From: Herpetosiphonaceae bacterium
Lineage (GTDB): Bacteria; Chloroflexota; Chloroflexia; Chloroflexales; Kallotenuaceae
DNA length: 64,000 bases
Assembly: GCA_013821605.1 (NCBI GenBank)
Contig: JACDGP010000007.1
Span: 1-64,000, forward strand
Direction of reading: 5' to 3'
The position numbers and the translations under genes are program-made. Every line of letters begins with the position of its first letter. Positions within the stretch are counted from its first letter, which is position 1. The notes below the pieces were generated by a model. That model was not told the DNA's origin, ran no database searches, and was given only the letters and a program-made list of their open reading frames with translations. Shown here piece by piece: positions 2,076 through 3,834 of this stretch.

Positions 2076-3305
2076 ATGTCGAATACCACCACTGATAACG
2101 ATCTAGCAACCATTGATGGAATGGCAGCGGTACAAACGATTCTCCGGGTGCTCCAGCGGATTACAGGCATGCGCATCGCGCTGGTGGCACGGGTCACAGA
2201 GGACGCATGGACCGCCTATGCCGTCCTAGACGAAGCCAATTTTGGGCTAAAGCCCGGCGACCAGTTAGAGCTGCAAACCACCTATTGAAGTGAAGTTCAG
2301 GGTGCGGTCGCACCCCTTCGTGTTAATCAAGCGAGCCAGGATCCGCGTTTTCGCGAGCATCCTGGCTTGCTACTGCACGGCATCGAAAGCTATATTGGCG
2401 TACCCTTGAATCGTCGGGACGGCAGCTACTTCGGCACCCTATGCGCCCTTGATCCTCAGGCGATGAACCTGTCTGATGCAGATTTCGAGGTCTTTCAGCT
2501 TTTATCACAGCTCATTTCGTTCGAGTTGGAAGCAGACGAGCAGCGGCGCAAGCGGGAGGCTGAAAAGCGTGCCTTGGAAGACATCATTGCCATCGCAGCT
2601 CACGATTTGCGGCAACCACTTGCCGTCCTTTCGGGGCGAGCAGAGCTACTGACGCGCCAAGTCCGGCGGGGGGCCACGACCGAGCAACTGCTCGACGGTC
2701 TCAACGGCATCGTGGCACAGGTGCGGCGTGCAACACGCCTCAGCGAAGCACTCCTTGATGTCGCCCAGATCGAGATGGGCGGTTTTACCGTGTCGGCGGC
2801 GCACTTCGATCTCATTGAGATGGTACGGCAGGCAGTTGAGGATGCTCAAACCTCAGCGCCGGCCCATACATTTTTATTGGATACTCCGGCAACCCTGCTC
2901 ATCTGGGGCGACGAGCGGCGGCTTGGTGAGGTCGTGCATAATCTGCTCGATAACGCCGCGAAATACACAGCCCCCGACTCGGGTCCTGTCGTGTTATCAA
3001 TCGCCGTGCTTGATACGCCGGAGCGGCCGCAGCGCACACGCCTGTGTGTGCGTGATCATGGTCGCGGCGTAGGGGACGATGCGCTGGGTCGCCTCTTTGA
3101 GCGCCAGTATCGCGCCCCTGACGCGACGAGGCAGGGTGTCAGAGGGACGGGGCTGGGCTTATATATCGTGCGCCAAATTGTGGAGGCACACGGTGGTAGT
3201 GTCTGGGCTGAACATGTGGATGGAGGCGGACTGAGGGTTTGTCTTGACCTACCCATGAACGTAGATACAGAGGGTGGCAATGCACATCATCGACCTGCGG
3301 CCTGA
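2076..3305 (+). CDS. GAF-domain sensor histidine kinase with one in-frame TGA (2286-2288): candidate selenoprotein, otherwise a nonsense-interrupted gene
   Basis: ORFs 2076..2288 and 2367..3305 are in the same frame with no other stop between; reads ...QLELQTTY[TGA]SEVQGAVAPLRVNQASQDPRFREHPGLLLHGIESYIGVPL...; H-box AAHDLRQPL, N-box LLDNAAKY, G-box GRGVGDD / GTGLGLYIV. Confidence 0.8.
2289..2322 (+). promoter_or_regulatory. Candidate bacterial SECIS-like stem-loop immediately 3' of the in-frame TGA
   Basis: GAAG(2292-2295)/CTTC(2316-2319) lower stem, 5' bulge TTCA, GGGTGC(2300-2305)/GCACCC(2310-2315) upper stem, apical loop GGTC (2306-2309), 17 nt after TGA. Confidence 0.55.
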
Positions 3306-3834
3306 AGACCTTGCCGCACGGGAACAAGTAGCACAGTTGTTGGTCGACATTTTCCCCCAAGCCTGGCCAGACATGGGTGCGGCGGGGGACGAGGTCAATG
3401 CGTCCCTCGCGCCAGATCGTGTAAGCCGGGTAGCCATGGATGGGCAACAAGCAGTTGTCGGTTGGATCGGCGGCATTCGGCAATACGATGGCCATGTTTG
3501 GGAACTGCATCCGCTCGTCGTACGGCAAGATCGGCGCGAGCAGGGTATCGGTCGAGCGTTAGTGGGCGATTTGGAGGAGCGCGTCCGTGAGCGCCATGGC
3601 CTGACGGTGTGGCTTGGCACAGACGACGATGCCGATCAAACCACCCTAAGCGGTGTTGATCTGTACTCCAACGTCGGTGCGCATATTGCCGGCATCCGGA
3701 ACCTCGCACGCCACCCCTACGAATTCTATCAAAAGCTAGGGTACGTGATTGTGGGCGTGCTGCCCGACGCCAACGGCATCGGCAGGCCTGACATCTACAT
3801 GGCCAAGCCGGTGTGGCGCTCGGGATCGACGTAG
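3274..3834 (+). CDS. GNAT family acetyltransferase, aminoglycoside 6'-N-acetyltransferase-like
   Basis: WELHPLVVRQDRREQGIGRALVGDLE, LGTDDDADQTTLSGVDLY, RNLARHPYEFYQKLGYVIVGVLPDANGIGRPDIYMAK. Confidence 0.8.
   Translation: MAMHIIDLRPEDLAAREQVAQLLVDIFPQAWPDMGAAGDEVNASLAPDRVSRVAMDGQQAVVGWIGGIRQYDGHVWELHPLVVRQDRREQGIGRALVGDLEERVRERHGLTVWLGTDDDADQTTLSGVDLYSNVGAHIAGIRNLARHPYEFYQKLGYVIVGVLPDANGIGRPDIYMAKPVWRSGST

Follow-up and report, generated by a model that had tools for sequence, protein, structure and literature searches.

The gene at positions 2076–3305 of the window, the whole 64,000-nucleotide stretch of DNA that was analysed, very probably encodes a selenoprotein sensor kinase, in which an in-frame UGA is read as selenocysteine (Sec) within a GAF domain that would work as a redox or electrophile switch. 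All features described here lie on the forward strand. Coding continuity, the Sec machinery, the SECIS element, the exchange of Sec and Cys, and selection on the full-length protein were computed directly.

Architecture of the kinase gene

The ORFs at 2076–2288 and 2367–3305 share one frame, whose only internal stop is the TGA at 2286–2288. This arrangement, already described in a first-pass annotation of the window, was confirmed from the sequence. The complete CDS comprises 409 residues, with Sec at position 71 (Sec71), and contains three domains. The GAF domain, the sensory module that bears the Sec, spans residues 18–150 (positions 2127–2525; PF01590, 3.8e-11). It is followed by the HisKA phospho-acceptor domain (residues 167–234, positions 2574–2777; PF00512, 4.3e-11) and the HATPase_c catalytic domain (residues 278–394, positions 2907–3257; PF02518, 1.4e-25). 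All three score above the Pfam gathering cut-offs in the joined protein, which is therefore a GAF-domain sensor histidine kinase.

The TGA codon in related GAF domains

A search of 61 related genomes recovered the full protein at identities of 55%, 51% and 36%, each time with TGA in the corresponding column, and a GAF-only search of the phylum followed by a class-wide profile search brought the TGA-bearing GAF domains to 19. One more was found in each of an Actinomycetota sample centred on Microbacterium and a sample centred on Myxococcales, in both cases as the top-scoring match of the search. TGA thus occupies the Sec column in 21 distinct GAF domains from 18 genomes and three phyla, 19 of them in the window's class and one in each of the two further sampled phyla. 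Among 102 distinct homologous GAF domains, which include these 21, the column holds Cys in 73, the residue that had been proposed as usual for the family, and neither TAA nor TAG in any. The TGA and the hairpin that follows it are kept in relatives down to approximately 30–35% identity and in the two other phyla. By this comparison, the Sec-GAF family is a previously uncatalogued one of at least 21 predicted signalling genes in three bacterial phyla. When the full-length protein was searched against 85,462 named genomes, 54 loci were recovered, mainly as matches to the kinase half, and no GAF relatives were among them; viral contigs contained a single distant GAF domain and nothing related to the full protein.

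Alignment of the homologues revealed that Cys and Sec exchange at this column. In a tree of 85 GAF domains, built on 137 columns and with many forks unresolved, the Sec/Cys label switches at least five to seven times. The exchange is also seen between siblings of one genus (G444 with Sec, G443 and G445 with Cys) and between paralogues inside one genome (G482a and G482b; G500c and G500b).

The SECIS element

The region downstream of the TGA folds into a hairpin with a minimum free energy (MFE) of −13.5 kcal/mol. A lower stem, formed by GAAG (2292–2295) and CTTC (2316–2319), is separated by a 4-nt 5' bulge (UUCA) from an upper stem, GGGUGC (2300–2305) with GCACCC (2310–2315), which is capped by the apical loop GGUC (2306–2309). 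The loop begins exactly 17 nt past the TGA. The two-part SECIS-like hairpin of the first-pass annotation folds as it was drawn, with GGUC at +17, but its lower stem (2292–2319) is not conserved as such in the alignment of relatives, and the conserved core consists of the upper stem and the loop (2300–2315). The bacterial SECIS (bSECIS) model comprises a loop of 3–9 nt with G in its first two positions, a stem of 4–16 bp, a distance of 16–37 nt between the UGA and the loop, and an MFE of at most −7.5 (PMC13188914 Fig 2). With a loop of 4 nt (GGUC), a stem of 6 bp, a spacing of 17 nt and −13.5 kcal/mol, the window hairpin falls inside all of these ranges. Rfam contains no family that matches it.

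Taken alone, the window hairpin is only modestly better than shuffled sequences (z −2.1; 9 of 200 shuffles fold equally well), and it was therefore judged by its conservation, which, in the aligned sequences, raises it far above chance. GGUC is found at exactly +17 in 21 of the 21 TGA genes versus 1 of the 73 Cys genes. This sole Cys gene, G500b, is a near sibling of the Sec paralogue G500c in the same genome. Its locus (L172, G500:C305:1850-2272) encodes a Cys-GAF that retains GGTC at +17 with one stem mismatch, a C-A pair, and the hairpin is apparently a relic, a SECIS element decaying after a change from Sec to Cys.

Pairing in the stem reaches 94% across the 18 distinct Sec sequences. Its covariation score is 0.435, whereas shuffled sequences give 0.162 ± 0.037 and slid partners no more than 0.163; as the sequences are related, the shuffle counts do not translate into probabilities. 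Covariation is seen between columns 18 and 27 (C-G in 12, U-A in 5, U-G in 1), both of them third codon positions whose changes are silent in the Gly and Ala/Glu codons that occur there. Columns 19 and 26 alternate between G-C and U-A, and here the peptide changes from GAVAP to GSVEP. Since the Cys relatives carry different peptides at this site (TSNAP, TTRAP, TAAEP and others), requirements of the RNA element seem to influence the protein sequence in the Sec forms. The hairpin also scores as terminator-like; a terminator was rejected, because coding is conserved past the hairpin and the hairpin follows UGA and not Cys.

Selenocysteine machinery of the host

The four components of Sec decoding that the first-pass annotation had proposed to look for are all present in the host genome: selA (544 bits), selB (320 bits, in a 635-codon frame), selD (377 bits; L010, G000:C92:30441-31370) and tRNA-Sec, with the anticodon tca/UCA, detected by both Rfam and ARAGORN. 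UGA also serves as an ordinary stop elsewhere within the window, and this genome, with all four components, thus decodes Sec. In selD, too, an in-frame TGA stands for the active-site residue (SCAGUAAKMG), which makes the host SelD itself a predicted selenoprotein. A second selB-like match in the host (446 aa, under the cut-off) is probably EF-Tu. With this machinery, the conserved hairpin and the alternation of TGA and Cys at one column, Sec would almost certainly be inserted at UGA 2286–2288 in the cell.

In the window's class, selA scores above the cut-off in 14 of the 16 genomes with TGA genes; it was not found in G003 (86% complete) and G027 (76% complete), both of which contain a full selB. 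Cys-only genomes of the class also frequently have selA, so this co-occurrence is weak evidence, consistent with Sec decoding rather than decisive. Four near-complete genomes of one family in the same order (f3; G010, G013, G016 and G025) have neither selA nor a full selB, which suggests that Sec decoding was lost in them.

Output domains joined to the Sec-GAF

The proteins of the window's clade have the composition GAF-HisKA-HATPase and approximately 400 residues. Elsewhere in the family the Sec-GAF is found in GAF-GAF-PAS-GGDEF-EAL (G333a), GAF-GGDEF-EAL (G003b) and GAF-PAS-GGDEF (G449) proteins, in a PAS/GAF-GGDEF protein (G482a), in a GAF-PAS-PAS-HK protein cut by the contig end (G333b) and in a hybrid kinase, GAF-HK-receiver-LuxR (G457). 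The variety of outputs to which it is joined characterizes the Sec-GAF as a portable sensory module.

Proposed mechanism and comparison with known proteins

In the mechanism proposed here, the GGUC hairpin downstream of the UGA at 2286–2288 would direct SelB and tRNA-Sec to decode this codon as Sec. The resulting Sec71 would take the place of a Cys that is usually conserved in this GAF subfamily. Most likely it would be the residue at which a redox or electrophile switch reacts. Its selenolate would be oxidised or modified, probably with reversible formation of a selenenyl-sulfide to Cys123, and the resulting change in the GAF domain would alter the output, which is histidine autokinase activity in the window protein and c-di-GMP turnover or a hybrid kinase-LuxR response in relatives. 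The first-pass annotation had inferred redox or ligand sensing through selenium; on the present alignments, a redox-switch function is moderately likely, and the chances that Sec71 pairs with Cys123 are about even.

The proposed partner, Cys123 (codon 2442–2444), belongs to a GTLC motif; all 21 Sec forms and 62 of the 73 Cys forms have Cys there. Its column and the Sec/Cys column are the only two invariant thiol-type columns in the profile set. The best solved relative is the GAF-GGDEF diguanylate cyclase Dcsbis/PA2771 (PDB 4zmu; 1.7e-11), which has both the Cys of an SFC motif, in place of Sec, and the Cys of GTLC. The Dcsbis GAF domain contains a large empty pocket whose ligand is unknown, and its cysteines are not mentioned in the paper describing it (PMC4937426). 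The presence of two invariant thiol columns, the co-conservation of Cys123 and the occurrence in Dcsbis of both cysteines and of an empty pocket favour a mechanism in which Sec71 is reversibly oxidised or modified and Cys123 possibly acts as the resolving residue. A single-sequence AlphaFold2 model of the GAF domain (mean pLDDT 36.5) is too poor to give the distance between residues 71 and 123. The Chloroplast Sensor Kinase (CSK)/Hik2 is, like the window protein, a histidine kinase with a GAF domain; it differs in having a Cys and a [3Fe-4S] cluster. A conserved Cys of its GAF domain has been implicated in redox sensing (PMC6949291).

Alternative explanations

If the TGA were a nonsense mutation or a sequencing error, the gene would be a decaying pseudogene, and the interrupted frame is what such a gene would show without Sec decoding. 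However, the same column carries TGA in 21 loci of three phyla, no other stops occur, and a GGUC hairpin follows at a fixed distance in all of them. In an alignment of eight full-length TGA-bearing orthologues with two Cys versions, dN/dS 3' of the TGA is 0.14–0.27 (orthologue pairs with unsaturated dS), so the kinase half is maintained as a protein in frame with the GAF domain. Decay and missing sel genes, named beforehand as signs that would speak against a selenoprotein, were both looked for; neither appeared, and purifying selection acts after the TGA. These comparative data refute the pseudogene reading, which has virtually no likelihood left. A decoded UGA could still serve mainly to sense selenium supply, the full kinase being produced when selenium is present and, without it, a 70-residue GAF fragment or a kinase re-initiated at an internal GTG or TTG. 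Any Sec gene is in principle selenium dependent and such start codons do exist inside the gene, past the UGA; against this, a thiol is retained at the column in the Cys versions, an indication of chemistry at residue 71, the second Cys is co-conserved, and the many outputs attached to the Sec-GAF show no tie to selenium genes. A selenium-status switch is accordingly improbable.

Two further readings retain chemistry at residue 71 and assign it another role. Sec71, with Cys123, might be a ligand of a metal, an Fe-S cluster or another cofactor instead of one half of a redox pair; a GAF Cys ligates the [3Fe-4S] cluster in CSK/Hik2 (PMC6949291), and two invariant thiol-type columns are on hand. 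Because these thiols are only two, and because known selenoproteins mostly place Sec in redox motifs (PMC13188914), a ligand role is considered unlikely, though conceivable. The GAF domain might also be an enzyme whose turnover is reported by the kinase, with Sec in the catalytic or the resolving position. A precedent is free methionine-R-sulfoxide reductase (fRMsr), a thiol enzyme with a GAF fold and a catalytic Cys, and catalytic Cys is commonly replaced by Sec. The Sec-GAF profile, however, matched no solved fRMsr chain at E 0.01, and the domain is always joined to signalling outputs in the proteins examined, which makes an enzymatic role doubtful. Reversible oxidation or modification of Sec71 is the reading retained here.

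Relation to catalogued selenoproteins

The window gene resembles bacterial selenoproteins such as formate dehydrogenase FdhA and SelD in that UGA lies at a Cys column, sel genes are present in the genome, and a hairpin with G in the first loop positions follows closely downstream, within the spacing of 16–37 nt. It differs from the 119 prokaryotic selenoprotein families listed in a 2026 review (PMC13188914 Table 1), which include no GAF protein, kinase or sensor, in that its Sec lies in the sensory domain of signalling proteins. Most of the catalogued families are oxidoreductases or bear redox motifs, some others being transferases or proteins for transport or metal handling (PMC13188914). No selenoprotein model of NCBIfam matches, the GAF domains giving just weak matches to the nifA and ptsP models. 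A search of the openly accessible selenoprotein literature found no GAF or kinase selenoprotein, in line with the earlier suggestion of a new class. Within that literature, the Sec-GAF kinase is, as predicted from its sequence, a selenoprotein by mechanism that belongs to a new class of host protein.

It is likely that Sec-based sensory domains are widespread, with Sec as the sensing centre of two-component and c-di-GMP proteins and selenium used for the perception of signals and not for metabolic catalysis or repair. If true, Sec in a modular sensory domain shared by histidine kinases and c-di-GMP enzymes would put selenium to a new use. It would also identify the residue that reacts in a common Cys-type GAF subfamily, of which Dcsbis is an example. 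Standard gene calling breaks Sec-GAF genes apart at the UGA, as it did in the ORF listings used here, and many genomes therefore probably contain copies that have been overlooked.

Genomic context

The kinase gene is flanked by genes for a phosphoesterase and an overlapping GNAT acetyltransferase. Gene neighbourhoods differ among the window copy, G003 and G027, so the signal of the kinase is not readable from its context. The acetyltransferase ORF (3274–3834) overlaps the stop of the kinase, which suggests translational coupling. On the other side, at the start of the contig, there are two closely similar phosphoesterase ORFs in tandem (99–593 and 574–2070), the first possibly being the 3' remainder of a gene that the contig end truncates.
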